Below are positions 1,844-60,798 of a DNA stretch of 64,000 bases, piece by piece. The number at the start of each line of letters is the position of its first letter. The stretch's first letter is position 1. The notes below the pieces were generated by a model. The model did no database searches, was not told the DNA's origin, and saw only the letters and a list, made by a program, of their open reading frames with translations. The position numbers and the translations under genes were made by a program. Source of the DNA: Neolewinella persica DSM 23188 (lineage in GTDB: Bacteria; Bacteroidota; Bacteroidia; Chitinophagales; Saprospiraceae). The stretch covers positions 186,001-250,000 of the forward strand of contig NZ_KB890458.1 in NCBI RefSeq assembly GCF_000373105.1. Direction: 5' to 3'.

Positions 1844-1864
1844 GGCGCGAACGCAGGTGCAGGG
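1844..1864 (-). repeat. Dispersed core repeat, copy 1 (minus orientation)
   Basis: Reads GGCGCGAACGCAGGTGCAGGG on the plus strand, the reverse complement of the family core CTGCACCTGCGNCCGCGCC. It is followed on the plus strand by an AG-rich tract, the complement of the CT-rich tract that precedes other copies. Together with copy 2 at 1938 it forms a ~113-bp imperfect palindrome whose arms are core plus purine/pyrimidine tract. Confidence 0.75.
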
Positions 1865-1937
1865 AAAAGAATAAAAGAGCAAAGGGTGGAAAGTTGGTAA
1901 CACCAGCCCTTTATCCTTGCTCCTTTTATCCTTTACA

Positions 1938-1956
1938 TTGCACCAGCGGCCGCGCC
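1938..1956 (+). repeat. Dispersed core repeat, copy 2
   Basis: TTGCACCAGCGGCCGCGCC, one base different from the core, preceded by a CT-rich tract (about 1900-1937). It faces copy 1 as an inverted pair. Confidence 0.75.
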
Positions 1957-2001
1957 ACATCAAACAATTGCAGTGTAACAAAAATTTTCTGACTTATTCC
2001 G

Positions 2002-2028
2002 TACGGACGGGGCTTGCCCCCGTCCGTA
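2002..2028. repeat. Perfect 11-bp inverted repeat
   Basis: Arms TACGGACGGGG (2002-2012) and CCCCGTCCGTA (2018-2028) with a 5-base loop. There is no T tract after it, so it is not a classic terminator. It lies in the 369-bp gap between the SusD gene and the next gene, which holds no credible ORF and three separate palindromes (a weaker one, CGTTCG/CGAACG, is at 2053-2069). Confidence 0.75.
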
Positions 2029-2086
2029 TCGGCACCCTGAAAACGCTTTATTCGTTCGTTTAGCGAACGCGTAGGATCGCACTCGG

Positions 2087-2119
2087 CTGTAGGGGCGAGG
2101 GCACGCCCCGCCCCTACAG
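2087..2119. repeat. Perfect 11-bp inverted repeat upstream of the FG-GAP lipoprotein
   Basis: Arms CTGTAGGGGCG (2087-2097) and CGCCCCTACAG (2109-2119) around an 11-base GC-rich loop. It lies about 70 bp before the preferred start at 2188, so it would fall in the 5' leader if transcription starts further upstream. Confidence 0.7.
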
Positions 2120-2187
2120 GCTATTCCATGATTAACAAAATTATGAATCAATCCACTCGGTTGAATACTACCTTCCAATTTAGAAAT

Positions 2188-5100
2188 ATGCGTTATTTAC
2201 TATCCATATCGTTGCTCACTTTCCTGCTAGTCTCCTGTACCAACGAGGATACAACCGGCACGATCCCTTCTTCGGGGCAGGAGACCGGGGAGGCCATTTT
2301 TGAGCGCGTCCCTTCCTCTGCAAGCAGGATAACCTTCAATAACCACGTTGAGGAAAACTTCAGGAATTTCTTTGCCCGTTTTCAGTATGTGTACAATGGA
2401 GGTGGGGTCGCCATTGGCGACATTGACGGGGACGGTTTGCAGGACATTTACTTCACCGCAAACGAACAGCCTAACACCCTGTACCGGAATACGGGAGATA
2501 TGACCTTCGAAGACATAACCGAAACGGCCGGTGTAGGTGGTGCCGGTCGCAGTGGTTGGGATAACGGCGTGGTGATGGCCGATATTGACGGCGACGGCAG
2601 GCTGGATATTTATGTCTGTAGGGGTGGCTCCGCAGACGGTAGCCGACCTGAAGACCGCGCCAATCTCCTCTACCTTAACCAGGGTGACGGCAAGTTCCGC
2701 GAAGCGGCCAGCGAATTCGGACTGGCGGATACCGGCTACTCCCTACAGGCGGTCTTCTTCGATATGGACAACGATAATGACCTCGATGCTTACGTAACCA
2801 ACCGGCCGGACCAGTTCTTCCTATCTTATGTCCAGGTACTGGAGGCGAAGAAAAAACAAGACCCGGTTTTCAGCGACCAACTATACCGGAACGATGATAA
2901 TCGGTTTACCCGCGTGACGGAGGATGCGGGCATCACCGGTAATTTCGGCTACGGCCTCGGCCTCGTTACCGCCGATGTGAATAACGATGGCTATACCGAT
3001 ATCCTGGTCTCTAATGATTACCTCGAAAACGATTACCTCTACGAAAACCAGGGGGACGGCACCTTCGCCGAAAGTATCGAAAAGTACACCAACCACACCA
3101 GTTTTTACGGGATGGGTATTGACGCAACGGACCTGAATAACGATGGTTTTGAAGATCTGGTCCAACTTGATATGTCTCCCGAAGACTACGTTCGCTCAAA
3201 GACCACAATGGCCAGTATGAACGTAGACGAATACCGGCGGATTATGGCAAGCGGATTCCATGACCAGTACATGCACAACAGCTTGCAGCTGAACCGGGGC
3301 AATGGTTTTTTTAGCGAGATCAGTCAACTGTCGGGCGTTGCTAAATCAGATTGGAGTTGGGCGGTTTTGGGTGCGGACTTCGACAACGACGCAAAAAAAG
3401 AGCTGTTCATCACGAATGGTTACCGGCGGGATGTCGCGGACAAAGACGGTAACATCCGTTTCCGCGCCTACATGCAAAGCCAGGAACGGAGAGAGCGGAC
3501 TGATGAAGAAAACGCCCGGGTGGTCATAGACATGTTCAACTCCGTCCCGTTGCAAAATTACCTGTACGATGATGCCGGGGAGTTGACCTACCGTAGCTCG
3601 GCCACGAGCTGGGGCTTGCCGGAGAAGTCATTTTCCAATGGTGCCGCTTACGGAGACCTGGACAACGACGGGGACCTGGATCTCGTCATCAATAACCTGG
3701 AAGAAGAGGCATTCCTTTACCGAAATAATTCTATTGCAGCCCAATCCAGCCTTCGCCTGCGTTTGCTGGGGCCCAGGGGAAATACCTTTGGCCTGGGCGC
3801 TAAGGTCACCCTTGAGCAAACGGGAGGACAACAGTTTCAGCAGCTAAAAACGGTACGGGGCTATCTTTCTTCAGTGGAACCTTACGTTCACTTTGGCTTG
3901 GGGGACCTTGGCGCCGTGAACCGCGTCCGGGTGGTCTGGCCAGACGGTAAAGAATCCGTTTTGGAGCAACCGGTAATTAATCAGCTGATTACCGTTGATT
4001 ATAAAACAGCCGGCCAGCAACTATCTCCTCCGGTACCCGTAGCACCCCTGTTTAAGGAGATAACCGGGGCACACTTTGCCAAAACGTTTATTCAGGAAGA
4101 GAATGAATTCGACGATTACGCCAGTCAGGTGCTGCTGCCCCATGGGCACAGTAAATCTGGTCCGGCCATTGCGGTTGGAGACGTAAACGGAGATGGTCTG
4201 GAGGACTTTTACATTAGCGGAGCGAAGCGGATAGCCGGCGTACTTTATCGCCAGGGCCAGGACGGGAAATTCTCCGCAGCAACCAATTCGTTTAGTGAAG
4301 AAGACGCTGGCCACGAGGATACCGCTGCCGCTTTTTTCGATGCAGATGGTGACGGAGACCAGGACCTTTACGTAGTTAGTGGTGGAAGCGAGTTCCCGGA
4401 AGCATCCCCTAAATTCCAGGACCGGCTTTACCTGAATGATGGAAAAGGCAATTTTACCAAGTCCTCAGGTCTCCCCGAAATTTTAAGCAGTGGCTCCTGT
4501 GTCGTACCGCATGACCTGGATGGAGACGGTGATCTGGACCTGTTCGTTGGGGGTAGGGTAGTGCCGGCCCGGTATCCGGCTGCACCACAGAGTTATATTT
4601 TGGAAAACGATGGGGGCATATTCCGGAATATTACCGAAGAAATGGCACCTGAACTGGCAGGTATCGGTATGGTTACTTCTGCTGTGTGGAGTGACATCGA
4701 TGGCGATCAAGTGTCGGAGTTGCTTGTAGTAGGAGAGTGGATGCCGGTATCAATATTTAAAAAGAAAGGAGGCACCTACCAAAACGTGACCGCAAATGAA
4801 GGGCTGGGTGAAACTCAGGGATGGTGGAATAAAATTGTTGCCGCTGACCTCGACGGTGACGGCGATGAAGACTACGTGCTGGGGAACCTGGGTCTGAACT
4901 ATAAGTTCCATGCCTCAGCGGAGAAGCCATTCTACGTATTTGCTTCTGATTTCGATCAAAACGGTAGCAACGACATTTTCCTGGCTAAAGCAAATGGTGA
5001 AAACCTGGTGCCCATCAGGGGGCGGGAGTGCTCGAGCCAGCAGGTTCCGGGAATCGCGGAAAAATTCCCCACCTATAACGCCTATGCCCAGGCGGAGCTG

Positions 5101-5520
5101 GCGGAGATCATTGACCTGGAAAAAGCGGATGCCATCCGATATGAAGTCAGGGAATTTGCTAACGCCTGGTTAGAGAATGTTGATGGTGAGCTGACCTTAC
5201 GCCGGTTACCATTGGAAACTCAGTTTTCGGTGATCAACAGTATTTTGGTTGCGGACCTGAATGGCGACGGTAAACAGGACCTGGTCACGGCGGGGAACAA
5301 ATACGAGGTCGAGATAGAAACCACCCGCGCAGACGCCGGAACCGGAACGGTACTGCTGAGTACCGGCGGGGGTGAATTTGAGGTGCTTGCCCCGACCAAC
5401 TCAGGCTTGTTCTTACCTGAAAACGTGAAGGGGATTTATCCGATCCGTTTGGGGAAAGATGGCGACCGGGGGCTGTTGGTCGGCATTAACGAGGGGCCGC
5501 TTCGGTTGCTCCGGTATTAA
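2188..5520 (+). CDS. Large FG-GAP/VCBS repeat lipoprotein with ASPIC/UnbV domain (CRTAC1-like)
   Basis: 1110 residues from the ATG at 2188. An in-frame ATG at 2128 would add 20 residues, but the signal peptide MRYLLSISLLTFLLVSC with a lipobox Cys at residue 17 begins at 2188. About fourteen calcium-type DxDxDG repeats (e.g. DIDGDGLQDIYF, DLDGDGDLDLFV) indicate two seven-bladed FG-GAP beta-propellers. An ASPIC/UnbV segment lies between them around residues 520-590 (RLLGPRGNTFGLGAKV, then HFGLGDLGAVNRVRVVWPDG). Proteins of this type often accompany SusC/SusD pairs in Saprospiria-like genomes. They are predicted surface carbohydrate- or protein-binding propellers, but no specific ligand is established. 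The adjacent SusCD supports a surface role in glycan handling; this is inference. Confidence 0.9.
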   Translation: MRYLLSISLLTFLLVSCTNEDTTGTIPSSGQETGEAIFERVPSSASRITFNNHVEENFRNFFARFQYVYNGGGVAIGDIDGDGLQDIYFTANEQPNTLYRNTGDMTFEDITETAGVGGAGRSGWDNGVVMADIDGDGRLDIYVCRGGSADGSRPEDRANLLYLNQGDGKFREAASEFGLADTGYSLQAVFFDMDNDNDLDAYVTNRPDQFFLSYVQVLEAKKKQDPVFSDQLYRNDDNRFTRVTEDAGITGNFGYGLGLVTADVNNDGYTDILVSNDYLENDYLYENQGDGTFAESIEKYTNHTSFYGMGIDATDLNNDGFEDLVQLDMSPEDYVRSKTTMASMNVDEYRRIMASGFHDQYMHNSLQLNRGNGFFSEISQLSGVAKSDWSWAVLGADFDNDAKKELFITNGYRRDVADKDGNIRFRAYMQSQERRERTDEENARVVIDMFNSVPLQNYLYDDAGELTYRSSATSWGLPEKSFSNGAAYGDLDNDGDLDLVINNLEEEAFLYRNNSIAAQSSLRLRLLGPRGNTFGLGAKVTLEQTGGQQFQQLKTVRGYLSSVEPYVHFGLGDLGAVNRVRVVWPDGKESVLEQPVINQLITVDYKTAGQQLSPPVPVAPLFKEITGAHFAKTFIQEENEFDDYASQVLLPHGHSKSGPAIAVGDVNGDGLEDFYISGAKRIAGVLYRQGQDGKFSAATNSFSEEDAGHEDTAAAFFDADGDGDQDLYVVSGGSEFPEASPKFQDRLYLNDGKGNFTKSSGLPEILSSGSCVVPHDLDGDGDLDLFVGGRVVPARYPAAPQSYILENDGGIFRNITEEMAPELAGIGMVTSAVWSDIDGDQVSELLVVGEWMPVSIFKKKGGTYQNVTANEGLGETQGWWNKIVAADLDGDGDEDYVLGNLGLNYKFHASAEKPFYVFASDFDQNGSNDIFLAKANGENLVPIRGRECSSQQVPGIAEKFPTYNAYAQAELAEIIDLEKADAIRYEVREFANAWLENVDGELTLRRLPLETQFSVINSILVADLNGDGKQDLVTAGNKYEVEIETTRADAGTGTVLLSTGGGEFEVLAPTNSGLFLPENVKGIYPIRLGKDGDRGLLVGINEGPLRLLRY

Positions 5521-5556
5521 TACAGTGTAACATAAGTTGTAGCTGCTTTTCATTTG

Positions 5557-5828: not shown

Positions 5829-5848
5829 TTGCACCTGCGGCCCCGCCC
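5829..5848 (+). repeat. Dispersed core repeat, copy 3
   Basis: TTGCACCTGCGGCCCCGCCC, preceded by a C/T-rich stretch (about 5800-5828). One mismatch to the core in the GC half. Confidence 0.75.
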
Positions 5849-6031: not shown

Positions 6032-7522
6032 ATGAAACCACCCTTTTTCAACTACCTAGGCAGACTCTTAATTCTTTGCCTCGCCGCAACGGCGCTATTC
6101 ACCGCTTGTGAGCCTGAAGATGACGACTTCTTCGACTTCCGCCCGGTTGACTTTTTTATCAGTGCGGACGGACTCCTTATTGATGCAGGAGAAAGCATTA
6201 CTTATAAGGATTCGTCCAACAATGCCTCCAGCAGAGAATGGACTTTTGAAGGCGGTATCCCAGCTACGTCTACTGATGCGACACCGACCGTTAATTACGC
6301 CGAAGCTGGAACATTTCTGACATTCGTGACGACCACTTTTTCGGATGGTTCCAAGCAAACCCGTCGCTTGACCGTCAACGTTGTTCCTCAGATAGTAGCG
6401 GACTTCTCAGCCAACCCGGTCCAGGCGGTGATCGATGGTCCGGTAAAACTGACAAACCTGACGCAAGGGGTTGGTACGATTCCGCCCGTTCTGTCTGAAG
6501 CGGACTCTGCCATCATTTATAAATGGGTGGTCGAAGGTATTGCAGATACCCTCCGGCAAAGTAACCCGACGATCAGTTTCAGCGCAGTTGGCACTTATGA
6601 TGTTACCCTTATTGTGACCCGCCGGTCAACTGGCTTCACCAATTCGATCACTAAGGCCGACTTTATCAATATCGTCGCTGTCCCGATTCTCCAACCGCGT
6701 AATGTCGACTTCGACCGCGACGGTTCCTCCTTCCTGGTTACTACCGGCGAACCGCTGGGGGCTGTAGCAGGAGCTGCTGCTAATTTCAGCCTGGTAGACG
6801 GTGCTGGAAACGCAGTAGCCATTACTAGTGTTGAGAAACCAGTCTGGGGCGACAACACCATTAAGGTAAACTACGATGCCGCAGGCCTTACTGCTGGTAC
6901 CGACTATACCCTGAGTTTCTCCGGAGACGGTATCCTCTTCGCCAGCGAATCTATTCTCGGAGCCTTCTCTTCAACGAGGACCTATGGCGGTGCTAATCCG
7001 GACTGGCTGGATTTTCTCTACCCAGAAATGGATCCCAACCAGCCGCTTACGGCAATGCTGAACGGTAAATCCTTCACCTCCGACGCCGAAGGCGTGCTCT
7101 ACGCATGGGGCTGTAACCCCGCCGTTAACGTATTAAACCCTGTTGACGGCTACCGCTGCCCTGGTGTAAACGCTGCTAGTAACTATTCCGTGGTGATCAC
7201 TGGCGACGGAGGTGCTACTTTGGACGACTTAGCTGACGTTGGCTTCGAGCTCAGCTTCCTCGGCCCCGACGGTACTACCTGGGAATTTAGCCAGCCCGTA
7301 ACAGACCTGCGTTTCCACAACACCTTTGGTAACATGGCACAAGTCCCCGAGGCGACGGTAAGTACTGACGGTTTGACCGTCACCGTGAACTTCCAGGGAG
7401 CACGTAATGGTGGTGCTCGCATCACCGGAATCCTGGAATCCGGCATTGCCGCCAGTGGATTGCAAATTAAATCCCTGGCTCCGGAAGACGCCAACGCTTA
7501 CGTTACCGCTACGGTGAAGTAA
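6032..7522 (+). CDS. PKD-domain surface lipoprotein of the SusCD locus
   Basis: 496 residues. The N-terminal signal ends LFTAC, giving a lipidated Cys at residue 26, followed by an acidic EPEDDDFFDF stretch typical of surface-exposed lipoproteins. Residues about 40-118 form a PKD-like domain (GESITYKDSSNNASSREWTF, then ATPTVNYAEAGTF). A second PKD-like unit follows at about 120-215 (NPTISFSAVGTYDVTLIV). The C-terminal half is a beta-rich region of unknown family. This position, after SusCD and before the sulfatase and fucosidase, is where surface glycan-binding proteins (SGBP/SusE-like) usually sit. Glycan binding is inferred from context only. Confidence 0.8.
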   Translation: MKPPFFNYLGRLLILCLAATALFTACEPEDDDFFDFRPVDFFISADGLLIDAGESITYKDSSNNASSREWTFEGGIPATSTDATPTVNYAEAGTFLTFVTTTFSDGSKQTRRLTVNVVPQIVADFSANPVQAVIDGPVKLTNLTQGVGTIPPVLSEADSAIIYKWVVEGIADTLRQSNPTISFSAVGTYDVTLIVTRRSTGFTNSITKADFINIVAVPILQPRNVDFDRDGSSFLVTTGEPLGAVAGAAANFSLVDGAGNAVAITSVEKPVWGDNTIKVNYDAAGLTAGTDYTLSFSGDGILFASESILGAFSSTRTYGGANPDWLDFLYPEMDPNQPLTAMLNGKSFTSDAEGVLYAWGCNPAVNVLNPVDGYRCPGVNAASNYSVVITGDGGATLDDLADVGFELSFLGPDGTTWEFSQPVTDLRFHNTFGNMAQVPEATVSTDGLTVTVNFQGARNGGARITGILESGIAASGLQIKSLAPEDANAYVTATVK

Positions 7523-7649: not shown

Positions 7650-7650
7650 A

Positions 7651-15008: not shown

Positions 15009-16421
15009 ATGCTTAATCCCCAGGATTTTGACCGTCCACAACGCCCGTTGCGCATCCTCCAGTTTGGTGGTGGCAATTTTTTACGCGCCTTTGTGGACTG
15101 GATGATCGACGTGCTCAACGAGCAAACGGATTTCAATGGTGGTGTCGCCATCGTTAAGCCGACAAGCCGTGGTGATTACGACGAGCTCCGTGCGCAGCAA
15201 GGCCTTTTTACCGTTGCTCTCGACGGTATCCGGCAAGGGGAATTGATCGCAGACCGGCGGGTGGTGACCTGCATACAGCAGGTGATTCAGCCCTACCTTG
15301 ACCGGGCGGCTTTCCTCGCTACGGCCGAGCTTCCGGAACTGCGGTTCATCATTTCGAATACGACAGAGGCTGGCATCCGCTTTCGGGAAGAACCGCTACC
15401 TGCGGAAGGAATGCCATCGGAATTTCCGGCTAAACTTTGCCTATGGCTGCACCACCGCTTTCAGTATTTCGGAGTAAAAGGGCGCGGGCGCGGGTGCATA
15501 GTTTTGCCTTTAGAACTTATCGAGAATAATGGGGACGAGCTCCGGGATTGTCTCCTCCGGTATGCCCGGCATTGGGGCCTGTCGGAAGCTTTTCAGCAAT
15601 GGACGTTGGAGGAAAACTACTTCTGTAATACGCTCGTTGATCGGATTGTTTCGGGTTACCCGGCCGACCGCGCGGCGGCTATCGCCGCCGAAACCGGCCA
15701 CGACGATCCTCTGCTGGTCGCCGGTGAATACTACCACAGTTGGGTCATTTCCGGCCCGGACCTGGTGGCCTTGGAACTGCCCTTCGGTAAAACAGACCTC
15801 AACGTCACCTTTACGGAAGACCTGGATGCCTACCGGGAGATCAAGGTGCGCATCCTTAATGGTGCTCATACCAGCATCGTCCCCACCGGCTACCTGGCTG
15901 GTCTGGAAACCGTGGGCGATGTGATGGCCGACGAAAAAATGAATGCTTTCCTCGAAGGTGTGCTTAACGACGAAATCATCCCCTCGCTGGATTACCCGAA
16001 AGCCGAGCTGAAAGCATTTGCCGCCGACGTGCTCGACCGCTTCCGCAACCCAAGCATCCATCACAAACTGATGGACATTTCACTAAACTCCACCAGCAAA
16101 TTCCGGACCAGGCTACTACCATCTTTGCTGGCCTACCAGGCTAAAAAAGGTACCCTCCCCACCGGTATTCTACGGGCCTTTGCAGCCCTGATCCGCTTTT
16201 ACCGGGGAGACCGGAACGGTGAGTCCATCGCCCTGCGTGATGACGCAGGACGAATTGCCTTCTTAAAAGCGCAATGGGCCAACGTACTATCCGGACAACA
16301 AACGCTCCACCAACTAACCGGAAATGTACTCGGCCGGGCAGATTGGTGGGACATCGACTTGAATACAGTTCCCGGCCTGACCAGGGAACTTACCGAAGCC
16401 CTCAAAAAATACCAAGACTAA
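15009..16421 (+). CDS. UxaB-family (mannitol dehydrogenase superfamily) reductase
   Basis: 470 residues, the usual length for tagaturonate reductase. The N-terminal Rossmann motif is ILQFGGGNFLRAF, followed by the family strings FIISNTTEAGI, VLPLELIENNGDEL, NTLVDRIVSGYP and LNGAHTSIVPTGYLAG. It is an NAD(P)-linked polyol or uronate oxidoreductase in the cytoplasm. The gene lies 9 bp after the UxaA-family gene and 10 bp before the SDR, so all three are probably co-transcribed. Oddity: codons at 15480-15501 encode KGRGRGC and match the dispersed core repeat on the minus strand with two mismatches, which looks like a repeat accommodated inside the gene before the VLPLELIE strand. Confidence 0.88.
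   Translation: MLNPQDFDRPQRPLRILQFGGGNFLRAFVDWMIDVLNEQTDFNGGVAIVKPTSRGDYDELRAQQGLFTVALDGIRQGELIADRRVVTCIQQVIQPYLDRAAFLATAELPELRFIISNTTEAGIRFREEPLPAEGMPSEFPAKLCLWLHHRFQYFGVKGRGRGCIVLPLELIENNGDELRDCLLRYARHWGLSEAFQQWTLEENYFCNTLVDRIVSGYPADRAAAIAAETGHDDPLLVAGEYYHSWVISGPDLVALELPFGKTDLNVTFTEDLDAYREIKVRILNGAHTSIVPTGYLAGLETVGDVMADEKMNAFLEGVLNDEIIPSLDYPKAELKAFAADVLDRFRNPSIHHKLMDISLNSTSKFRTRLLPSLLAYQAKKGTLPTGILRAFAALIRFYRGDRNGESIALRDDAGRIAFLKAQWANVLSGQQTLHQLTGNVLGRADWWDIDLNTVPGLTRELTEALKKYQD
15480..15501 (-). repeat. Dispersed core repeat inside the UxaB-family gene
   Basis: Read on the minus strand it differs from the extended core (CTTTGCACC, TGCG, N, CCGCGCCC) at two positions. It encodes a Gly/Arg-rich KGRGRGC segment in the host protein. 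Confidence 0.55.
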
Positions 16422-20085: not shown

Positions 20086-20943
20086 ATGAAAGCATCCTTA
20101 CTTCCCTTGCTCCTTATTCTTTCCTTCTGCACCAGCGTCCGCGCCCAAATAAGTGATTCGCTGGAACCGCCTGCAAAGATCTATCGCGTCAAACCGCTGA
20201 TCAGCCTTCCGGTGACCATCGCCGGCTTTTATTTTGGACAGGAAAAACTCAAAGATTTTCGGGAAAAGACGCCCCTTACCCAAATTGATCTTGATCTCTT
20301 GAATCCCGACGATGTCCCGGGTATCGACCGCATTGGTCTGCGGCAAGACTACGATAAGGCCGAAAGTGCGGCGAAGCTCTCTGATGCTTTTTTCATCGGT
20401 GGGCAGGTGGCCCCTTTCACCCTGTTCATCTGGAAAAAATACCGTGATGAATGGAAGGACATCACCATGATGTACCTCGAAGCACAAATGGTCCAGGGCC
20501 TCTTTTATGGCTATGCACCCTTTGGTCCTGCTGGTATTGATCGCCTCCGTCCCCGCGCCTTTTATGAAGAAGAAGAATTTGGCCAGCGGACCAACGGCAA
20601 CACCCAGAACAGCACCTTCAGTGGGCACGTAAGCACGACGGCTACCGGCTGGTATTTCTACGCCAAGATCATCACCGATCATAACCCCGACCTGACTGGA
20701 GGCCAAAAAGCGCTGATCTATGGGGCGGCTTCCGTCCCTGGCATCGTCACCGGAATATTGCGGGTAAAGGCACTCAAACATTTCCCTACCGACTCGGCCA
20801 TCGGCCTGGGAGTCGGTGCCTTCAGCGGCATCATGGTGCCAGAATTCCACCGTTGGTGGGAGAAGAAGCATAAGACTAAGGCGATGGTGACCCCGCTGTA
20901 CGGGAATGGGGCCGCAGGGCTGGGGTTCTCGTTGGTTTTTTAA
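20086..20943 (+). CDS. PAP2-superfamily phosphatase, paralogue 2
   Basis: 285 residues, more than half identical by eye to the protein just upstream (shared IDRI.LRQD, MMYLEAQ..QGLFYGYAPFGP, TFSGHVST, PTD..IGLGVGA.SGIMVPEFHRWW). This is a tandem duplication. The motifs are IDRLRPR, TFSGHVST and RVKALKHFPTD. Its signal peptide, ending LILSFCTSVRAQ, is encoded by a CT-rich tract plus a copy of the dispersed core repeat at 20128-20146, in sense orientation. Paralogue 1 has an unrelated signal sequence, so the two signals differ more than the mature proteins do. Confidence 0.8.
   Translation: MKASLLPLLLILSFCTSVRAQISDSLEPPAKIYRVKPLISLPVTIAGFYFGQEKLKDFREKTPLTQIDLDLLNPDDVPGIDRIGLRQDYDKAESAAKLSDAFFIGGQVAPFTLFIWKKYRDEWKDITMMYLEAQMVQGLFYGYAPFGPAGIDRLRPRAFYEEEEFGQRTNGNTQNSTFSGHVSTTATGWYFYAKIITDHNPDLTGGQKALIYGAASVPGIVTGILRVKALKHFPTDSAIGLGVGAFSGIMVPEFHRWWEKKHKTKAMVTPLYGNGAAGLGFSLVF
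20128..20146 (+). repeat. Dispersed core repeat forming a signal-peptide end
   Basis: TGCACCAGCGTCCGCGCCC preceded by a CT-rich tract from 20101. In the PAP2 paralogue 2 frame it encodes CTSVRAQ, the end of the signal peptide. Confidence 0.75.
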
Positions 20944-21292: not shown

Positions 21293-22029
21293 CGAACCCG
21301 AATATTTCGAAACCGGCATAAATGCCCATGATCCTGTAAGCCCAGGTGTCCGGGTTTATCTTGGGCGTAGGTGGGGTAATCGGCAAATTTACTTTTGGCG
21401 TAGCGCGCTTTCCAGTCGTCGGAATACAGGTCGTATTCGATGACCAGGTTACCGTTCAGCCAGTGCTCCACGTGGTTGCCCTTTTTGGTGATACGCGCTT
21501 TGTTCCATTCCCCGATCGGGTTGCTGTGGTTGATCTTCTGCGGGTGCATATCATAGTTGGCACCGGTACATTGGGCCAGGGTAAGACCCTCGTATGTTGC
21601 TTTGTAAGTCTCGTCATCAAGCAGTTGGTATTCCGGAGCGGAGTGCCAGATGGGGGTGCTTTCGATTTCCTGAACGAGGTAGAAAATACCACTGTTGGAA
21701 GTGTCGGTGAGGGCAAACTCCACTTCCAGTTCGAAGTCGGTGAATTTATCCTTGGTGATAATATCCCCACCGAAGCCGTCTTCTTCGGTGCCGGAGTGCT
21801 CCACCATGAGTTCATCGTTTTCTATCCGCCAGCCCCTGGTGGGAAAGGTTGCTTTATTATAGCTGCGCCATTTGTCGGTGGAGGAACCGTCGAACAGGAC
21901 TTCCCAGGTACTGGAGAAAGCAGGTGATTCCATCATCCCCGTATCGTCGGTTGCGGTGTCAACTGTTTTAGGGGCGGGGTCGCAGGTGCAAAGTAAGGAC
22001 ATTAAGAGCAGGGACAAGAGAGTTCTCAT
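21283..22029 (-). CDS. DUF1080 (3-keto-disaccharide hydrolase-like) lipoprotein
   Basis: 248 residues. The signal ends LLCTCDP, with a lipidated Cys. The rest is a single concanavalin-like DUF1080 domain: LFDGSSTDKW, GWRIENDELMV, FTDFELEVEFALTDTSNSGIFYLV, HSAPEYQLLDDE, and the C-terminal GHLGLQDHGHLCRFRNIRVR. Family members bind or hydrolyse glycosides, often 3-keto sugars, in the periplasm or on the outer membrane. The lipobox codons (21971-21993) coincide with a sense-oriented copy of the dispersed core repeat, so the repeat supplies the lipidation signal. Confidence 0.9.
   Translation of the reverse strand: MRTLLSLLLMSLLCTCDPAPKTVDTATDDTGMMESPAFSSTWEVLFDGSSTDKWRSYNKATFPTRGWRIENDELMVEHSGTEEDGFGGDIITKDKFTDFELEVEFALTDTSNSGIFYLVQEIESTPIWHSAPEYQLLDDETYKATYEGLTLAQCTGANYDMHPQKINHSNPIGEWNKARITKKGNHVEHWLNGNLVIEYDLYSDDWKARYAKSKFADYPTYAQDKPGHLGLQDHGHLCRFRNIRVRRE
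21971..21993 (-). repeat. Dispersed core repeat forming a lipobox
   Basis: On the minus strand CTTTGCACCTGCGACCCCGC followed by CCC. In the DUF1080 lipoprotein frame it encodes LCTCDPA, i.e. the lipobox. Confidence 0.75.
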
Positions 22030-27194: not shown

Positions 27195-27213
27195 CTGCAC
27201 CTGCGGCCGCGCC
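27195..27213 (+). repeat. Dispersed core repeat, exact copy (27195)
   Basis: CTGCACCTGCGGCCGCGCC, exact core, preceded by a well-developed CT-rich word tract at about 27164-27194. Confidence 0.8.
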
Positions 27214-27348: not shown

Positions 27349-27368
27349 TTTGCACCTGCGACCGCGCC
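27349..27368 (+). repeat. Dispersed core repeat, exact copy (27349)
   Basis: TTTGCACCTGCGACCGCGCC, 136 bp after the previous copy and in the same orientation. Both lie in the 480-bp gap 26995-27474, which has no other gene-like content apart from a small CGCCC-GCA-GGGCG hairpin near 27300 and the pheS promoter element. Confidence 0.8.
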
Positions 27369-27474: not shown

Positions 27475-28533
27475 ATGGCACATGAAGTATTTGACCGGGT
27501 AGAAGCCCTCATTAAAGATATCGAACAAGCTACGGCTACAACGCCCGAAGCTGTGGAAGCATTTCGCATCCGTTATCTCGGTACCAAGAACGTATTGAAG
27601 CCGCTTATGGGCGAGATGCGTAACATCCCGAATGAGCAGAAGCGTGATTTCGGACAGTTGGTAAACCGGGCCAAGGAAGTAGCGCAGGCTAAATTCGATG
27701 CTTTACAGGCGGCCACCGCAGCACAAGCAGGCGCGGACGCAGGTGCAAAGTTCGACCTTTCGGCCCCTGCGGAGCCGTTGCCCCTGGGCAGCCGGCACCC
27801 AATCGCCCTGACGATGCGGCGCATCATCAGCATCTTCGAACGCATCGGATTTACCGTTGCCGAAGGCCCCGAGGTGGAAGACGACTGGCACAACTTCAGT
27901 GCTATGAATACCCCCGAAGATCACCCGGCCCGGGACATGCAGGATACCTTCTACGTAGCCGCTGGCATGCCCGCCGGACCGGATAACGCAGACATGCTGC
28001 TGCGTACCCATACCAGTTCCGTGCAGGCCCGCACGATGGAAAACCAACAGCCTCCCATCCGGATCATCGCTCCTGGTCGCGTGTACCGAAACGAAACGAT
28101 CAGTGCGCGTAGCCACGCCCAGTTCCACCAGGTGGAAGGCTTATACATTGCCGAAAAAGTCAGCTTTGCCGACATGAAGGCAACGCTGCTGCACTTCGCC
28201 CGGGAAATGTATGGTGACAAGACTAAAATACGCCTTCGCCCAAGCTACTTCCCCTTCACCGAACCAAGTGCAGAAATGGACATTTGGTGGGGACTCGAAA
28301 GTGAGCACGATCATCGGATAACCAAAGGCACCGGCTGGCTGGAAATCCTTGGCTGTGGCATGGTTGACCCCCAGGTGTTGATCAATTGCGGTATCGATCC
28401 CGAAAAATATACGGGCTACGCCTTCGGCATGGGTATTGAGCGGCAAGCCATGTTGCTCTATAACATTACGGACATCCGCCTGATGTTTGAAAACGATGTA
28501 CGGTTCCTTAAGCAGTTCGCCGGGGTACTTTGA
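27475..28533 (+). CDS. pheS: Phenylalanine--tRNA ligase alpha subunit
   Basis: 352 residues. Residues 1-85 are the N-terminal tRNA-binding coiled coil (YLGTKNVLKPLMGEMRNIPNEQKRDFGQLVN). The class II catalytic core follows from about residue 105: GFTVAEGPEVEDDWHNFSAMNTPEDHPARDMQDTFY, RTHTSSVQAR, RVYRNETISARSHAQFHQVEGL, FRPSYFPFTEPSAE-type motif 2/3 and GMGIERQAML (motif 3). It charges tRNA-Phe together with PheT, which is not in the window. Oddity: the linker between coil and core (residues 86-92, GADAGAK) is encoded by an antisense copy of the dispersed core repeat at 27730-27749. Confidence 0.97.
   Translation: MAHEVFDRVEALIKDIEQATATTPEAVEAFRIRYLGTKNVLKPLMGEMRNIPNEQKRDFGQLVNRAKEVAQAKFDALQAATAAQAGADAGAKFDLSAPAEPLPLGSRHPIALTMRRIISIFERIGFTVAEGPEVEDDWHNFSAMNTPEDHPARDMQDTFYVAAGMPAGPDNADMLLRTHTSSVQARTMENQQPPIRIIAPGRVYRNETISARSHAQFHQVEGLYIAEKVSFADMKATLLHFAREMYGDKTKIRLRPSYFPFTEPSAEMDIWWGLESEHDHRITKGTGWLEILGCGMVDPQVLINCGIDPEKYTGYAFGMGIERQAMLLYNITDIRLMFENDVRFLKQFAGVL
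27730..27749 (-). repeat. Dispersed core repeat inside pheS
   Basis: GGCGCGGACGCAGGTGCAAA on the plus strand, exact extended core on the minus strand. It encodes GADAGAK in the PheS inter-domain linker. Confidence 0.8.
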
Positions 28534-28699: not shown

Positions 28700-28718
28700 C
28701 TGTACCTGCGACCGCGCC
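28700..28718 (+). repeat. Dispersed core repeat (28700)
   Basis: CTGTACCTGCGACCGCGCC, one mismatch, preceded by a CT-rich tract from about 28668. Confidence 0.75.
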
Positions 28719-29913: not shown

Positions 29914-29933
29914 GGCGCGGTCGCAGGTGCAAA
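29914..29933 (-). repeat. Dispersed core repeat (29914)
   Basis: Minus-strand TTTGCACCTGCGACCGCGCC, exact core, with its CT-rich tract (AG-rich on plus) at 29934-29958. It lies in a convergent gap, so it is not upstream of any gene start. Confidence 0.8.
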
Positions 29934-41187: not shown

Positions 41188-41206
41188 GCATCCTGCGACC
41201 GCGCCC
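41188..41206 (+). repeat. Dispersed core repeat (41188)
   Basis: CATCCTGCGACCGCGCCCC, a diverged 5' half but intact GC half, preceded by the CT-rich TTCTTTATCCCTTCA. Located between convergent gene ends. Confidence 0.65.
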
Positions 41207-46116: not shown

Positions 46117-46125
46117 TTCGGGGGG

Positions 46126-46133
46126 CGAAGATA
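46126..46133 (-). promoter_or_regulatory. Candidate -7 box for the TamB gene
   Basis: TATCTTCG on the minus strand, 9 bp before the chosen ATG at 46116. A TTG at 46156-46158 lies 22 bp upstream as a possible -33. Confidence 0.45.
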
Positions 46134-46356
46134 AGGTTTGCAGAGACCTTATATACAAGAACGTTTTTTCCTGGAGGGTGGTTAATGCTGGCAGTGGGAT
46201 TTAACCGGGGTTTAACGGGGGCAGAGTAGCTTCCTCCTGTTGCAGGGGTTACAGGGTGGAATTTGATGTTTTTCGACAAAAACTTTTCAAAACGAACGAA
46301 GTGAGCTGCCCGGTGCGGTAGCTGCAACCTGCGACAAGGAGCGAAGTGACTGGCCT

Positions 46357-46466
46357 GCAACGGGAGCGAAGCGACCCTGCAACGGGAGCGAAGCGACCCA
46401 GCAACGGGAGCGAAGCGACCCAGCAACGGGAGCAAAGCGACCCTGCACCGGGAGCGAAGCGACCCA
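46357..46466 (+). repeat. 22-bp tandem repeat, five copies
   Basis: Five consecutive 22-bp units with consensus GCAACGGGAGCGAAGCGACC followed by C and A or T, starting at 46357, 46379, 46401, 46423 and 46445. One degenerate unit precedes (46335) and one truncated unit follows. Copies differ by 0-2 bases. The same unit occurs once at 24442-24463 beside the 9-bp minisatellite. ORFs through it are artefacts. Confidence 0.95.
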
Positions 46467-46478
46467 GCAACTTCTTTA

Positions 46479-46499
46479 GGCGCGGCCGCAGGTGCAGGG
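46479..46499 (-). repeat. Dispersed core repeat (46479)
   Basis: GGCGCGGCCGCAGGTGCAGGG on plus, exact core on minus, followed on plus by an AG-rich tract. It abuts the 22-bp array. Confidence 0.8.
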
Positions 46500-46561: not shown

Positions 46562-46580
46562 TTGCACCTGCGTTCGCGCC
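46562..46580 (+). repeat. Dispersed core repeat (46562)
   Basis: TTGCACCTGCGTTCGCGCC, one mismatch, 55 bp before pdxJ. Copies at 46479 and 46562 are inverted and 62 bp apart, repeating the pair geometry of 1844/1938. The 518-bp divergent gap before pdxJ has no gene. Confidence 0.75.
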
Positions 46581-48015: not shown

Positions 48016-48034
48016 CTGCACCTGCGTCCGCGCC
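48016..48034 (+). repeat. Dispersed core repeat, exact copy (48016)
   Basis: CTGCACCTGCGTCCGCGCC with one of the clearest CT-rich tracts (about 47981-48015). 76 bp before the GMC oxidoreductase start. Confidence 0.8.
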
Positions 48035-51694: not shown

Positions 51695-51714
51695 GGCGCG
51701 GCCGCAGGTGCAGG
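51695..51714 (-). repeat. Dispersed core repeat (51695)
   Basis: GGCGCGGCCGCAGGTGCAGG on plus, exact core on minus, immediately after the DoxX stop and 32 bp before the GT2 stop on the other strand. Confidence 0.8.
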
Positions 51715-55619: not shown

Positions 55620-55621
55620 TA

Positions 55622-58600
55622 TTACCGCAAAATAACCACCTTTCCCATTTCACGGGCAAAGAACTGGTCGGTACCAGTATCGTACTTTTCCAGGGTGGAA
55701 CCACTGCTATCAGAAGTGATGACCCGGTAGAGGTAAACGCCATTGGCCAGCAGATCGCCGTACTCATCCGTACCGTCCCAGGCAAAATCCGTCTGGTGCG
55801 TACCAATACGCAATTCTTCGTGGGCCAACAGGTCAATGTCCCGAACCACCCGGCCTGAAATGGTCATGATCTGGATACGGAAAACCTCGGGTATTTCATT
55901 TCCCGTCAGGGTATAAACGAACCGGGTTTGTGTCGTAAACGGATTTGGGTAAGTAAGGACATTGGCCACCATTTGCTCGTTGATAACCTCAAATTCCTGA
56001 CGGAAATCTATGCGGCCGGCTGCATTGCTGGTACGATCGCGGCCCCTTACTTCAAGGGCGTACGTGCCGTTGGTAGAAAGGGTCGGGCGGAAGAATATTT
56101 CCGCCGTATTCTCTGAAGTAGTAGCGGGGAGGAACTCAATTCTGGAGTCGGAAAAGGACAACCGTTCCCGGCTTCCGTCCGGAGCGGAGAGTTCAAGGAA
56201 ATAAGCAGCCGTATCGTTAAGTGCCAGGTACCTGTTTTCGTCCCGAAGCTGTACGTGAATTTCGGGTTTCCCACTTACCAGGTCTCCGTCATTGATTCGC
56301 CGCCCATCAAAGAAAACGGACAAACTGGGGGCAATGATATCTTCACCAACCTTAAACACGGAAGTGAGAATGTTATTAAACAGGACGAATTCCGGTTGGT
56401 CCTGGTCCGGGTTCAAGGTGACATTGAAGCGATGTGGGCCGATGAAAGCCTCCGTTGGTACATCGAAACTAAACTGGTCCGTTGCGCCCGCGGGTAGGGG
56501 AGGCCGACGCTTTAAGTAAGTGGTCGTTTCGTTTCGGTCATTGACCACTTCCAGTTCGATCAAAATGCTGTCCATCCCGATCCTGGAGATGTTCTCGTAG
56601 CCGGCGGCAATGGCGAGGGTCTGGCCCTGATCTATGGAGTCCGGTACGTTATAGGCGATCTGGGGGTTGATGGCCGCGTCACCCGGAGCTTCGTGGTCGA
56701 AATAAACATACTCTACGGTGGGGGTGGTTCTACCGTCTTCATCGTAGAAATTGAACTCGGCCCAGAGGAAGGGAAACTCTTCAGCGCTGACGGAGTTCAG
56801 CGGGAGGGAGAGCGCTCTGGAAGCTTGGAAATCAAATTCCTGGGCCAGAATCTCCGTTTCCACCCCTGCCGAAGAAAGTGCCATTATGCGGACCCCGACA
56901 CTATCCTGATCGGTCAGGTTTAAAGAAGAAAGCCCAAGGTTGACTTTCTTCCAGCTCAAGGCCGGGCCTGCTTTTGCAGAAGTCCACTTCCCTTCCGGCC
57001 AATTACTTAGCAGGCTGGCTTCCATGGCGATGGTGTCGTTAAGACTTTCTGCCATTATTTCAGTAATTGGACCCATCCCTTTTTGATAGGTAAACGCGTA
57101 GGGAACGGAGCCTACTTCGGTCATGCGCCGGGTCAACAGGGCTCCTTCCTGCTCCAGTACGTTGAAGATGGTGTTGCCAAGATTTGTCGAGTCGGTCTCC
57201 CAATCAGCGTTGTAGTAATCACTAAGGTTCCGCTGAACAGTGTAGATCAGAACATACTTCCCCGGTTCAATTCCTTCGGTCAGAAATTGGATCAACCCCG
57301 CCCTTTCTGCGGGGCGCCGGGTGTCAAAATCCCAGGAGCTCCCACTGAATGGCCTGGTACCGTATTCCCCATTTCCCGGGTTACCGTACCAATTTCGGTT
57401 GTTGGTACTATCAATGACCAGCACCTGAATACCGGTAGATATCCTCCATCTGAAGGGAGAAAAGAAGATTTGCCCATCAAATTCAAAGCGAGGCATGGTG
57501 CTGTTCTGATAAGGAGCGTTGAAAATTTTAATGTCCGTAATACTTCGGGATGATCCCCAGCCAAGCTCAGTAGTATCCGCAAATACGTTTTCAAAGGCCC
57601 CGTCAACGGTCTGTCCTGGGTCCTGAAGGGCCCAACTAATCTCATTGTCTGGCTGATCAGCTAACCAGGTAAAGGAGCTTTCGCTCCACAGGAATCCCGC
57701 GCCCTCAGTGAAGGAACTATCGGGGCTGATTCGCCAGTAGTACGTCGTACTGTCAACGGGTTGAAAGCCTGGAGAATACCGAATGATGCCTCCTGGCCGG
57801 TTGATCGTTTCATTGCTTAGTAAATTACGGAACCGGCGGTCGCTGGCCACCTGGATTATATAGTCCCGGTCAGGAGCAAGGGCATTGGTGGTTGAGGCCA
57901 CAAATTCCAGGGCTCCGCCAATAACTCCGTATTGTGGAGGGAAGGCCGCTTTGGCAGTATTGGCAATAATTGTAAGCGGCACTCCTGCCTGACCACCAAT
58001 AACCAGTTCATTGTTTGATTTGGCGGCGGGTAGTGGAGCTTCCACTATTTCATTCTCGGGGTCAATACTGATGAGGATTCGGTTTTGCCCAACGGCAGAA
58101 AAACCTATGTTTGGCAACTCTAATTCAAAGGCTTCCCGATAATCCGGAGCTGCCACCCGGTGGGTGGCCAGCTCAACGACTTCACCGGAAGGAAGCTGTT
58201 GCCTAAATCGAAGCGTGACACTTTCCTGGTCGGGCTTTAGCCCGAGATTAACGAGTTCCAGACTAATGGTGTAATTCGGGTTCTGAGCAGGAACAACTTC
58301 TGGTTCGAAAGAAATGGTTGCCGCATCAACTATCAGATCCGTGCCGGGGCGTGGGTGCATCCGGTAGGCCGGGTCGCCACTGAGCGCGAATTGCTCGAGC
58401 AGGATGCCCAGGGTGAAGTTGGAAGTACCGGCAAATTCTGCAATGGTAGTTCGCATGGCATCTCCAATACCTTCTCCATAGTTGACATTACCCATGCTTT
58501 CATACAGGATATTTCCCCAATTGCCGAGTGCTGAGATGTAGCCTACTCCTTTGGAGGCCGCAAAAGCAATGGCGCCCTTGTCCCGTAGGAAAATGAAGCG

Positions 58601-60607
58601 TTCACTAATGCTCCGTGCTTCGGTAAAGGCGTCACCGCTGTAACAGCCCAGGCTCATCATGTAAGGATACTTACCGAAATTGAAGTAGTTGTCCGGATCA
58701 TCGATGCTGAAGTCAAAGGTTTGGCTGCTGGAGTGCCCGAAGAAGGTGATGATGGAGGTACCATTGTTGATGCGATCGAAAATGGCCTGCTGGCGACTGT
58801 CTTCAATGGGTTCACTGCTTGATTTGTAGAAAGAAACAACATTAGCGCCCATCTCTGAAATTCGGATCGAGTCTTCCATTCGCTGCAATCGGCTTCTTAT
58901 GCTGGACTGCTCTCCCGGAGAAACACCGCCACCGAGATGCATGATCTGTTTCATCCATTCCCGGTCGGCAATCGTCTGATCACCCTGCTCAATCTGCCCT
59001 TCAACGTCACGTAATTTTTTCAGGTACAACTCAACCTCCCCCTCGTTGATGGCCGCAAGGCGGCCAACGGAATAGTTAGGGATGACGCTGCCGAGATCGG
59101 CCGCCATCAGGTTGTCAGAAGCAGGGAAACCGAAGGAAGGAATGAAAAAAGTTTCCTTCGCTCGAACCAGCTGTGCTGGTGTCCGGATGTCCGGATATTC
59201 CCGTCCTTTTCCGATCAGGAACAGGTACTGAAGCTTGGGTATGGCCAACTTCGCCGCACTGAGATAGTTCCGGATCGCCATTGGATGGCGGCCCAACCCG
59301 TAAGCGTACTCGTCGTAAAGGTCTTCCACATCTACAGTGTGTACAACGTAGCTTCCCCCGGTTACCGACCGACGGTAGTCGGCCAGCTCATTAACTGCCT
59401 GACCGTTGAGGCGGCGGCTGGTGATGATCAGGTAGTTGGTGTTGATGTCTGTTGGGAGGTTCGAAGAAAATCGCAGGCCGGAGGATGCCGGTGCCGTCAT
59501 GAAATTTTCGCCCGGAACTAACCGCCAGGTCAGGTCTTCCCCCGAAGCCGGGAATTCAAGCGTAGCTTCCCCCGCCATGTTGATGCTCGCTGAAACAAGA
59601 TCGCCGGTAGCGGGCGCATAGCTCTTAATCTCCCCACTTGCACCTGCGTCCGCGCCCAAACCAGTGAACACTATCCGGGTGGCCGTCCGGGAAGAGGGTA
59701 TGATGAAGCTGTTCAGCCCTTCGTCCCAAGCGGTAGAGGCAGAATAAGTAGCTTTGGCCCAGGCAATGTTTGGCTTGTCGCGGGAGCCTCGCGTACCTTC
59801 AATATTAATTTCAGTAGATTCTCCTGAAGGCGTGAAATTTACCCTGTGTTGCTGCACACTCCAACTGGACTGGGTGACGGTCTTTAGCAGATTGCCGTCA
59901 GCTCTAATTTCAACGATGTGGCCATCAAAGGCGGTGCCAAAACGGACATCCAGTACCGCTTCCGCATTAATGGAGCCGGCCAGAGACAGGGGGAAAACAT
60001 TGTCCCGCCGGCCGTCGGGGGATAAGAGGTCATTCGTGTTTCTACTCCCAAATCCTTCGGCTTTATCGTAATGAGAGTAATAAATACTTGAACCCGCACT
60101 ACGAAAGAAACTCTTACTCATGTGGTCACCGAAAACCTGCTCACTGGTCCGCAGGATAATATCCCGATCAACGATCTGTCCCACAATTGGCCGCGCCTCA
60201 TAATTCTGGCCATCGGCTCCACGGCTCAGGTAGTAGGCCGAGGTATCCGTATGCATGCTGTATTGGTCATTGAGCTGGTCCGCATCCGGATCTGGGAAAA
60301 AGTGACGGTCCATTTCTCCGCGGTTGCGCTCCCCGTAAAAAACAATGCCTTCCGTTGTCTCCTCCAGAGGGACAACCTGCCCTTTGTGATACAGTACCCA
60401 ATCTCCCGATCCGAATGGCCCGGCTGCCGCAATCTCCGCAGGAGAAATCCGGTACATACCATCCTGCGCTACCTTAACTACCAGGTAGTTACGATCATAA
60501 TCAATCCATTCATTACCATAACTCACCGATCCGTCGGGGTTAGGCATTTGCGCGAAGAGGAAAGCAGAAAAGAAAGCAATGCACAGGGTAAGTAAGATTC
60601 GAAACAT
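55622..60607 (-). CDS. C25 (gingipain-type) cysteine peptidase with T9SS sorting domain
   Basis: 1661 residues. Signal peptide MFRILLTLCIAFFSAFLFAQ. An N-terminal PorU-like section (YLVVKVAQDGMYRISPAEIAAAG) precedes the caspase-fold peptidase: catalytic His625 in ITFFGHSSSQTFD and Cys655 in MSLGCYSGDAF, 30 residues apart. A very long beta-rich middle (Ig/CARDB-like, e.g. NYTISLELVNLGLKPDQESVTLRF) follows. The C-terminus has TYPNPFTTQTRFVYTLTG and FAWDGTDEYGDLLANGVYLYRV, a T9SS/FlgD-like sorting domain. It could be a PorU sortase paralogue or a secreted protease. The bases 59638-59657 carry an antisense core repeat encoding GADAGAS. Confidence 0.88.
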   Translation of the reverse strand: MFRILLTLCIAFFSAFLFAQMPNPDGSVSYGNEWIDYDRNYLVVKVAQDGMYRISPAEIAAAGPFGSGDWVLYHKGQVVPLEETTEGIVFYGERNRGEMDRHFFPDPDADQLNDQYSMHTDTSAYYLSRGADGQNYEARPIVGQIVDRDIILRTSEQVFGDHMSKSFFRSAGSSIYYSHYDKAEGFGSRNTNDLLSPDGRRDNVFPLSLAGSINAEAVLDVRFGTAFDGHIVEIRADGNLLKTVTQSSWSVQQHRVNFTPSGESTEINIEGTRGSRDKPNIAWAKATYSASTAWDEGLNSFIIPSSRTATRIVFTGLGADAGASGEIKSYAPATGDLVSASINMAGEATLEFPASGEDLTWRLVPGENFMTAPASSGLRFSSNLPTDINTNYLIITSRRLNGQAVNELADYRRSVTGGSYVVHTVDVEDLYDEYAYGLGRHPMAIRNYLSAAKLAIPKLQYLFLIGKGREYPDIRTPAQLVRAKETFFIPSFGFPASDNLMAADLGSVIPNYSVGRLAAINEGEVELYLKKLRDVEGQIEQGDQTIADREWMKQIMHLGGGVSPGEQSSIRSRLQRMEDSIRISEMGANVVSFYKSSSEPIEDSRQQAIFDRINNGTSIITFFGHSSSQTFDFSIDDPDNYFNFGKYPYMMSLGCYSGDAFTEARSISERFIFLRDKGAIAFAASKGVGYISALGNWGNILYESMGNVNYGEGIGDAMRTTIAEFAGTSNFTLGILLEQFALSGDPAYRMHPRPGTDLIVDAATISFEPEVVPAQNPNYTISLELVNLGLKPDQESVTLRFRQQLPSGEVVELATHRVAAPDYREAFELELPNIGFSAVGQNRILISIDPENEIVEAPLPAAKSNNELVIGGQAGVPLTIIANTAKAAFPPQYGVIGGALEFVASTTNALAPDRDYIIQVASDRRFRNLLSNETINRPGGIIRYSPGFQPVDSTTYYWRISPDSSFTEGAGFLWSESSFTWLADQPDNEISWALQDPGQTVDGAFENVFADTTELGWGSSRSITDIKIFNAPYQNSTMPRFEFDGQIFFSPFRWRISTGIQVLVIDSTNNRNWYGNPGNGEYGTRPFSGSSWDFDTRRPAERAGLIQFLTEGIEPGKYVLIYTVQRNLSDYYNADWETDSTNLGNTIFNVLEQEGALLTRRMTEVGSVPYAFTYQKGMGPITEIMAESLNDTIAMEASLLSNWPEGKWTSAKAGPALSWKKVNLGLSSLNLTDQDSVGVRIMALSSAGVETEILAQEFDFQASRALSLPLNSVSAEEFPFLWAEFNFYDEDGRTTPTVEYVYFDHEAPGDAAINPQIAYNVPDSIDQGQTLAIAAGYENISRIGMDSILIELEVVNDRNETTTYLKRRPPLPAGATDQFSFDVPTEAFIGPHRFNVTLNPDQDQPEFVLFNNILTSVFKVGEDIIAPSLSVFFDGRRINDGDLVSGKPEIHVQLRDENRYLALNDTAAYFLELSAPDGSRERLSFSDSRIEFLPATTSENTAEIFFRPTLSTNGTYALEVRGRDRTSNAAGRIDFRQEFEVINEQMVANVLTYPNPFTTQTRFVYTLTGNEIPEVFRIQIMTISGRVVRDIDLLAHEELRIGTHQTDFAWDGTDEYGDLLANGVYLYRVITSDSSGSTLEKYDTGTDQFFAREMGKVVILR
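59638..59657 (+). repeat. Dispersed core repeat antisense inside the C25 gene
   Basis: TTGCACCTGCGTCCGCGCCC, exact core, opposite to the gene. Encodes GADAGAS in the host frame, the same GADAGA as in PheS. Confidence 0.8.
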
Positions 60608-60639
60608 CTGATAGTTTGTTGGGCGGGGATGTACTGGTA

Positions 60640-60647
60640 CAAAGATA
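60640..60647 (-). promoter_or_regulatory. Candidate -7 box for the C25 peptidase gene
   Basis: TATCTTTG on the minus strand, 32 bp before the ATG at 60607. No canonical -33. Confidence 0.45.
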
Positions 60648-60683
60648 ACGGTATTGTCTGTGCTTCGTTGTGTCTTCGAGGAG

Positions 60684-60775
60684 TCAATTAGTCCAACAGT
60701 CAGATAGTCAAGGAGTCAAAGCGTCACTGTGATAAACGCAGACGACTCTCTGACTATTTAACTTTCTGACTTCCT
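60684..60775. repeat. Inverted octamer-word array
   Basis: Left arm: 8-base words AGTCCAAC, AGTCAGAT, AGTCAAGG, AGTCAAAG, CGTCACTG. Right arm: GACTCTCT, GACTATTT, AACTTTCT, GACTTCCT, whose reverse complements are again AGTC-type words. The arms form a long imperfect palindrome directly beside a core repeat. The 332-bp gap between the C25 and M28 genes is otherwise empty. Confidence 0.7.
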
Positions 60776-60798
60776 GGGGCGGGGCCGCAGGTGCAGAG
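60776..60798 (-). repeat. Dispersed core repeat (60776)
   Basis: GGGGCGGGGCCGCAGGTGCA plus GAG on plus, minus-strand core with one change. The octamer array lies on its GC side, the reverse of the usual CT-tract order. Confidence 0.75.

Follow-up and report, generated by a model that had tools for sequence, protein, structure and literature searches.

A genus-wide repeat with species-specific spellings in Neolewinella as a candidate DNA-uptake tag in Bacteroidota

Discrimination of incoming DNA by a genomic tag was known as of 2025 only from the Neisseriaceae, with their DNA uptake sequences (DUS), and the Pasteurellaceae, with their uptake signal sequences (USS), according to the part of the source available to us (PMC12616744; the other papers cited below were likewise available in part). 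Here, we describe a repeat with a 19-letter, GC-rich and asymmetric core, CTGCACCTGCGNCCGCGCC, which is dispersed through a 64,000-nucleotide stretch of Neolewinella persica DSM 23188 (contig NZ_KB890458.1, positions 186,001 to 250,000; "the window" below) and through its genus, placed by NCBI taxonomy in Lewinellaceae, Saprospirales, Bacteroidota. In our view, Bacteroidota are likely to have a system of DNA-uptake specificity comparable to DUS and USS, with this repeat as its genomic tag. By most of the genomic signs tested the motif behaves as DUS and USS do, although even spacing is significant in one genome only and the PilT of a type IV pilus was not found; uptake would then be its purpose, and a receptor for it would exist. 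We found no such motif for Bacteroidota, Lewinella, Neolewinella or Saprospiraceae in the top-ranked open-licence literature, judged by titles and the beginnings of abstracts, and the motif letters themselves gave no match in the open-licence literature.

The motif shares with Neisseriaceae DUS its thousands of copies, intergenic excess and close inverted pairs, as well as a fixed short inner core surrounded by species "dialects" (PMC3630211, PMC2397512). However, DUS are 10–12 bp long, compared with ~19 bp plus loose flanks here, and are recognised by the type IV minor pilin ComP, whereas PilT was not found in these members of another phylum, where uptake is the predicted role. Pasteurellaceae USS resemble the motif in having a core with loose flanking blocks, sites that are stable over the long term and a variant in one subclade (PMC1626085), an orientation-specific bias to gene ends (PMC2346458) and a build-up in phages (PMC6776037). 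In the available text of one of these sources, uptake sequences are described as having no orientation bias, opposite-facing close pairs, a noncoding preference and long-term stability (PMC1626085). USS differ in their 9-bp core with AT-rich blocks 3' of it, whereas the core here is 19 bp and GC-rich with CT-rich blocks 5', and one species here has a very different, less GC-rich motif. HIP1 of cyanobacteria is also a very abundant short motif, but it is a palindrome, GCGATCGC (PMC4390886), while the motif here is asymmetric and has species spellings.

Allowing up to three mismatches, the core occurs 17 times in the window, compared with 0.09 copies expected by chance; none of 100 shuffles of the window reached 17, the maximum being one. 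An earlier, sequence-only reading of the window had proposed 18 dispersed copies, 17 of which we recovered at most two bases from where it had placed them, with 0–2 mismatches, while the one near 41188 was not found at up to four mismatches. That reading had named a genome-wide search at three mismatches beforehand as a test. In the whole genome (G000; 7.08 Mb in 84 contigs; G numbers are our handles for genomes), this search gave 1,807 copies (908 plus, 899 minus), or about one per 3.9 kb, compared with 27 matches (13 plus, 14 minus) to a reversed control pattern. As had been claimed, the repeat is a genuine genome-wide family rather than a product of chance, and it does not behave like REP, BIME, HIP or MITE.

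The consensus carries ~31 bits of information in G000. Pairwise identity among 132 copies averages 0.86 over the core, 0.35 from -25 to -1 and 0.28 from +1 to +25; beyond ~25 bp from the core it is random (0.25), with no shared sequence. Weak conservation in the flanks takes the form of blocks, approximately CCTTGCTCCTTTTANCCTTYCC 5' of the core and CAAAA 3' of it. The CT-rich 5' stretch noticed in the window is thus real at an identity of 0.35, but it is loose, and what had looked like 8-base words are weakly conserved blocks. The stretches of G000 that we read were mostly picked where copies had already been listed, and their densities are biased.

All 21 genomes of the genus hold an abundant motif of this kind, with 309–1,807 copies of some spelling (controls 2–138). 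The best-matching scanned spelling yields 398–1,807 copies in 19 of the 21, with 309 in G004 and 389 in G015. The window spelling, at up to three mismatches, is present in 102–1,604 copies in 18 of 20 congeners and at control level in G001 (37, control 34) and G010 (16, control 14). Instead, G001 carries ACCTGCGCTCCGCCGCC in 691 copies and G006 carries it in 398 (controls 2 and 4). In G013, CAG replaces CCG in ten out of ten copies printed, and a search for GCACCYGCGNCAGCGCCC at up to one mismatch, which CCG copies can also pass, gives 1,048 copies. The favoured spelling of G012 and G016 is CGGCACCCGCGTCCGCGCC, and G017 favours the ending CCCCGCC. Most divergent is G010, which the rpoB tree places on a long branch and in which a motif found de novo, CAYTGCTACTTTGNNAGYCA followed by A-rich DNA, has 1,048 copies (control 2); it is very different from the window spelling, less GC-rich, and private to G010, with at most six copies in any other of 60 genomes searched. 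The letters ACCYGCG lie inside the spellings of the 11 genomes read as logos or copy lists, and G010 departs from them almost completely; nine further genus genomes were only counted, with patterns containing ACCYGCG. The spellings given here rest on printed copies and pattern counts rather than on motif refinement, which was uninformative for G020 and G016 (controls about as high as matches, drifting to codon periodicity) and weak for G019 (29 matches, control 20), G012 (103, 23), G001 (148, 27) and G006 (67, 8).

Different spellings also occur at orthologous intergenic sites. At three of them (G001:110485, G006:38303 and G006:107577), G001 or G006 has a longer core of the ACCTGCGC type where G012, G016, G017 or G020 has a shorter type; counted from ACC, the two consensus spellings have lengths of 17 and 15, a two-base difference. 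These are examples and give no rate, and many aligned counterparts of G001/G006 sites are not motif-like, having lost the motif or never carried it (e.g., G001:14992, G001:65470, and G001 opposite G006:107577). The simplest account of such changes at the same site would be a trans-acting reader whose specificity changes.

Outside the genus, the motif is rare. Across 296 Bacteroidota genomes (294 outside the genus), searched at up to two mismatches in a scan that does not cover other spellings in other genera, the non-genus maximum was 14 copies, except for 61 in G112, several of which lie close together on short stretches. At up to three mismatches, the window spelling gave 62 matches in the neighbour genus G021 (control 38) and 49 in G039 (control 30), and 100 kb of G021 showed no strong dispersed motif, a weak negative. 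Among the matches listed from a scan of GTDB contigs, most belong to Neolewinella, Lewinella, or metagenome-assembled genomes of Bacteroidia or Saprospiraceae; the unrelated ones (Nocardiopsis, Pseudonocardia, Rhodovibrionaceae and Variovorax) have one match each.

Copies are stable at orthologous sites in the one genome pair on which our stability and constraint results rest, G012 and G016, which are syntenic over 377 kb at ~80% identity. Of 34 copies in G012, 27 are shared with G016, six are unshared and one is unmapped (1.5 shared expected by chance); the 37 copies in G016 divide into 29, seven and one. Where copies lie in coding sequence, third codon positions are identical at 102/106 and 114/127 core positions (90–96%), compared with 346/601 and 394/692 (57–58%) in the flanks and 0.63 and 0.59 in GC-matched control 19-mers. 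These coding copies were taken regardless of the state of the other genome, and alignments were obtained for 16 of 17 and 19 of 20. The 16 shared intergenic sites examined show 84% identity in the core and 34–53% in the flanks, a figure that the choice of shared sites biases upward. Both these comparisons and the alternation counts below pool related genomes, so the counts are not fully independent.

The motif also appears in a group of phages. We found 56 viral stretches with an exact match, many of them GC-rich contigs with chance-like matches, and therefore count as evidence only the contig group with host-type flanks, as judged by eye. One contig piece of this group, L383 from a tailed phage, has six copies in 21.1 kb (control 0), a host-like density; it carries a tape-measure gene that is also in L352. 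Pasteurellaceae phages similarly accumulate USS (PMC6776037). Based on the motif, this phage group probably infects Neolewinella. When viral sequences were scanned for the G010 and CAG spellings, the outcome was eight single matches and at least 120 stretches listed with one match each, respectively; these look like chance and provide no phage evidence for either spelling. L383 and L352 are IMGVR_UViG_3300012037_000001, with related contigs L348, L351, L384 and L385, and one exact motif copy lies directly before the tape-measure gene of the group.

Placement and orientation were analyzed with gene calls from a simple scorer of open reading frames (ORFs) rather than an annotation pipeline, and G020 and G006 were excluded from the context and alternation tables. 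Of 331 copies from nine genomes, 193 are intergenic, 133 are coding and five lie at sequence edges (326 placed), although the coding fraction of these genomes is 0.81–0.91. Of 29 copies that lie no more than 90 bases from the start of a gene, 27 are in sense, and those that we read encode leader peptides. Most intergenic copies (139/193) lie nearer to the gene they point into, with 112 pointing to 5' ends and 81 to 3' ends. In ten genomes, neighbours less than 1 kb apart are mainly divergent (45/57), those 1–2 kb apart are more often convergent (36/61), and those more than 4 kb apart alternate in 97 of 165 cases (p 0.03); the G010 motif alternates as well (30/40). The rule that copies point into genes may reflect import of homologous DNA downstream of the motif. 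The copies in the window illustrate these settings (mismatches are to the core):

1844..1862, minus strand: motif copy, 1 mismatch, left half of a divergent pair, pointing to the 3' end of ORF 223-1758
1938..1956, plus strand: motif copy, 2 mismatches, right half of that divergent pair, pointing to the 5' end of ORF 2128-5520
5829..5847, plus strand: intergenic copy, 2 mismatches, pointing to the 5' end of ORF 6032-7522
15481..15499, minus strand: copy within a gene of the mannitol dehydrogenase family by Pfam (15009-16421, plus strand), 2 mismatches
20127..20145, plus strand: copy in a gene of the PAP2 family by Pfam, encoding part of its signal-peptide-like leader (MKASLLPLLLILSFCTSVRAQ)
21973..21991, minus strand: copy in a gene of the 3-keto-disaccharide hydrolase family, encoding part of its N-terminal leader (MRTLLSLLLMSLLCTCDPAP)
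27195..27213, plus strand: intergenic copy upstream of pheS, 0 mismatches
27350..27368, plus strand: intergenic copy upstream of pheS, 1 mismatch
27730..27748, minus strand: copy within pheS (27475-28533, plus strand), codons 86-92
28700..28718, plus strand: copy 5' of ORF 28827-29783, forming a convergent pair with the copy at 29914
29914..29932, minus strand: copy 3' of ORF 28827-29783, facing into that ORF
46479..46497, minus strand: left half of a divergent pair, 0 mismatches, pointing to the 5' end of ORF 41254-46158 (TamB family)
46562..46580, plus strand: right half of that divergent pair, 2 mismatches, pointing to the 5' end of ORF 46635-47366
48016..48034, plus strand: intergenic copy, 0 mismatches, pointing to the 5' end of ORF 48110-49846
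51695..51713, minus strand: copy between ORFs, 0 mismatches
59638..59656, plus strand: copy within a C25-peptidase-family gene (55622-60607, minus strand), before the C25 domain
60778..60796, minus strand: intergenic copy, 1 mismatch, pointing to the 5' end of the C25-peptidase gene 55622-60607

The pheS copy sits between two Pfam domains (matches 23-85 and 93-348). Two divergent pairs form stable hairpins (1844/1938, z -6.1; 46479/46562, z -4.0), while the folding of two single copies does not exceed that of shuffles (z -1.4 and -0.7). A tandem GGGTCGCTTCGCTCCCGTTGCT-type array at ~46380-46478 adjoins a motif copy.

The same arrangement could be expected if the repeat were bound inside the cell by a protein that works at the boundaries of genes, as an insulator, an aid to termination or a means of structuring the nucleoid, with a specificity that differs between species. 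Copies near gene ends that point into genes, the divergent and convergent pairs at their respective distances, the two hairpins, the strong conservation at orthologous sites and the presence of the motif in the phage group would all suit such a protein. Still, we regard it as unlikely: 133 of 326 placed copies are within coding sequence, where they have no obvious boundary use, and the ~31 bits in G000 seem more than a site present 1,800 times would need. Each time the protein changed, all of the hundreds of sites in a genome would have had to follow, including the two fifths that lie in genes. Moreover, both 5' and 3' ends are pointed to (112 and 81), with no transcription direction strongly favoured. 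The sequence-only reading had suggested a binding site for a chromosome-organising protein; in the broad sense of a motif recognised by a protein this stands, but chromosome organisation fits worse than uptake recognition because of the spelling changes, the presence in the phage group and the many copies within genes.

The other suggestion of that reading, a miniature mobile element, fares much worse, and the repeat is probably not mobile. A very small mobile repeat of the SDR, REPIN or MITE type, mobilised in trans and spread through the genus, would explain the high copy number, the genus restriction, the inverted pairs and the open frame of copies within genes; REP, REPIN and BIME elements and small mobile dispersed repeats are likewise short, high-copy, often intergenic and found as inverse pairs. 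We nevertheless find this account highly improbable, as 27 of 33 mapped copies are at orthologous sites, where the DNA-level constraint on the core is far above that of the flanks and beyond coding need, and copies have nothing in common past ~25 bp. The two single copies tested do not fold into hairpins above shuffles, and species differ in their spelling, in some cases where the sites are orthologous. None of the 13 unshared G012/G016 sites (six plus seven) shows a clean insertion of 19–45 bp; by eye they show substitutions or ragged gaps. Presence does vary between these close relatives, as had been anticipated for an element, but only for six of 33 mapped copies, and the constancy of most copies weighs against mobility. 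Gene cassettes between inward-facing copies were also considered as mobile units and set aside, since some of them, compared by size and arrangement, appear to be orthologous in different species. 

Equally hard to credit is a Chi-like or segregation-orienting sequence (a recombination hot spot or FtsK-type polar motif), which would also be frequent, asymmetric and found in phage DNA, given that there is no strand polarity (908/899), that neighbours within 4 kb alternate rather than agree in orientation, and that known Chi or KOPS sites are far shorter than this motif. Replication-strand polarity itself was rejected as a pattern, with these totals and both orientations mixed in the stretches read; an all-plus run on one contig of G019 (G019:C1), seen among the matches listed, probably reflects the listing rather than the contig, as the matches listed for G000 likewise lack minus copies that this genome has, and 100 kb from another part of G019:C1 shows mixed orientations.

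Returning to DNA uptake as the explanation, two components of the competence machinery are present in the genus. We searched the 19 genus genomes other than G019 and G020; ComEC was found in all 19 and DprA in 18, the miss being a 55% complete genome. Riemerella, also of the Bacteroidota, is naturally transformable, and comEC, dprA, recA, comM and TonB have been studied there (PMC8383284, available part); the phylum can therefore transform.

Several observations weigh against an uptake role. ComEC and DprA do not single out the genus because they are common outside it (8/11 and 9/11 non-genus genomes). The PilT family was found in none of the 19 genus genomes searched (other pilus genes were not searched), so the receptor would differ from the known one, and uptake probably does not follow the Proteobacterial route, driven by a pilus, in unaltered form. 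At ~19 bp, the motif is longer than the 9–12 nt of DUS and USS. Even spacing is reported for USS and DUS; here the coefficient of variation (CV) of intervals is under random in several sets but significantly so only in G019 (CV 0.63, p 0.016). The excess over control is modest in GC-rich congeners (G020, 559 vs 138; G004, 309 vs 79). Divergence below 1 kb and convergence at 1–2 kb can also be read as a gene-boundary function. Finally, the contrast between the phage group and four relatives of its tape-measure gene, which have no copies in 79 kb, is a weak one because these relatives are AT-rich (GC 0.32–0.38).

If the repeat is an uptake tag, a putative cell-surface or periplasmic receptor would prefer DNA with the species' own tag, and the tagged DNA would be handed to ComEC, protected by DprA and then recombined. 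Tagged alleles would enter more often than untagged ones, so tags would accumulate, held at permissive places such as intergenic DNA, leader-peptide codons and domain linkers. Should import proceed mainly to one side of the tag, gene-pointing tags would bring in homologous DNA, recombine more and be fixed more often. As receptor specificity drifts, the tags would follow, and a new spelling would spread.

We lean towards the view that this would be the first uptake-sequence system outside the Neisseriaceae and Pasteurellaceae, in another phylum and with something other than a retracting type IV pilus as its receptor, that it has been respelled across the genus, once almost completely (G010), and that single genes between inward-facing tags are favoured units of exchange. 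If so, Bacteroidota without PilT would provide a third case, independent of the other two, and would show that recognition of self by tags has evolved more than once and can use different machines. This case would also offer a new system with many spellings in which to test molecular drive against selection as the origin of uptake sequences. Natural transformability of Neolewinella would be predicted, and adding the tag would be a practical rule for transforming these marine bacteria.

In the Neisseriaceae, depletion of uptake sequences from conjugative elements has been used to find such elements (PMC7371117, available part). In three congeners, genes for TraG-family conjugation ATPases of the Bacteroides type (G001:C4 near 46620, G008:C6 near 5963 and G011:C29 near 3946) mark likely conjugative elements. 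G000 also holds a clustered TGCAACCCCTG repeat, confined to a few 2-kb bins and unlike the core motif in this respect. The over-represented words CCCGATAGCTAT in G019 and CCTCAATCCC in G020 are local repeats, because they too are confined to a few 2-kb bins. Other over-represented words are CATCSGATGT in G020 and TGTCGCGGCTT in G005.

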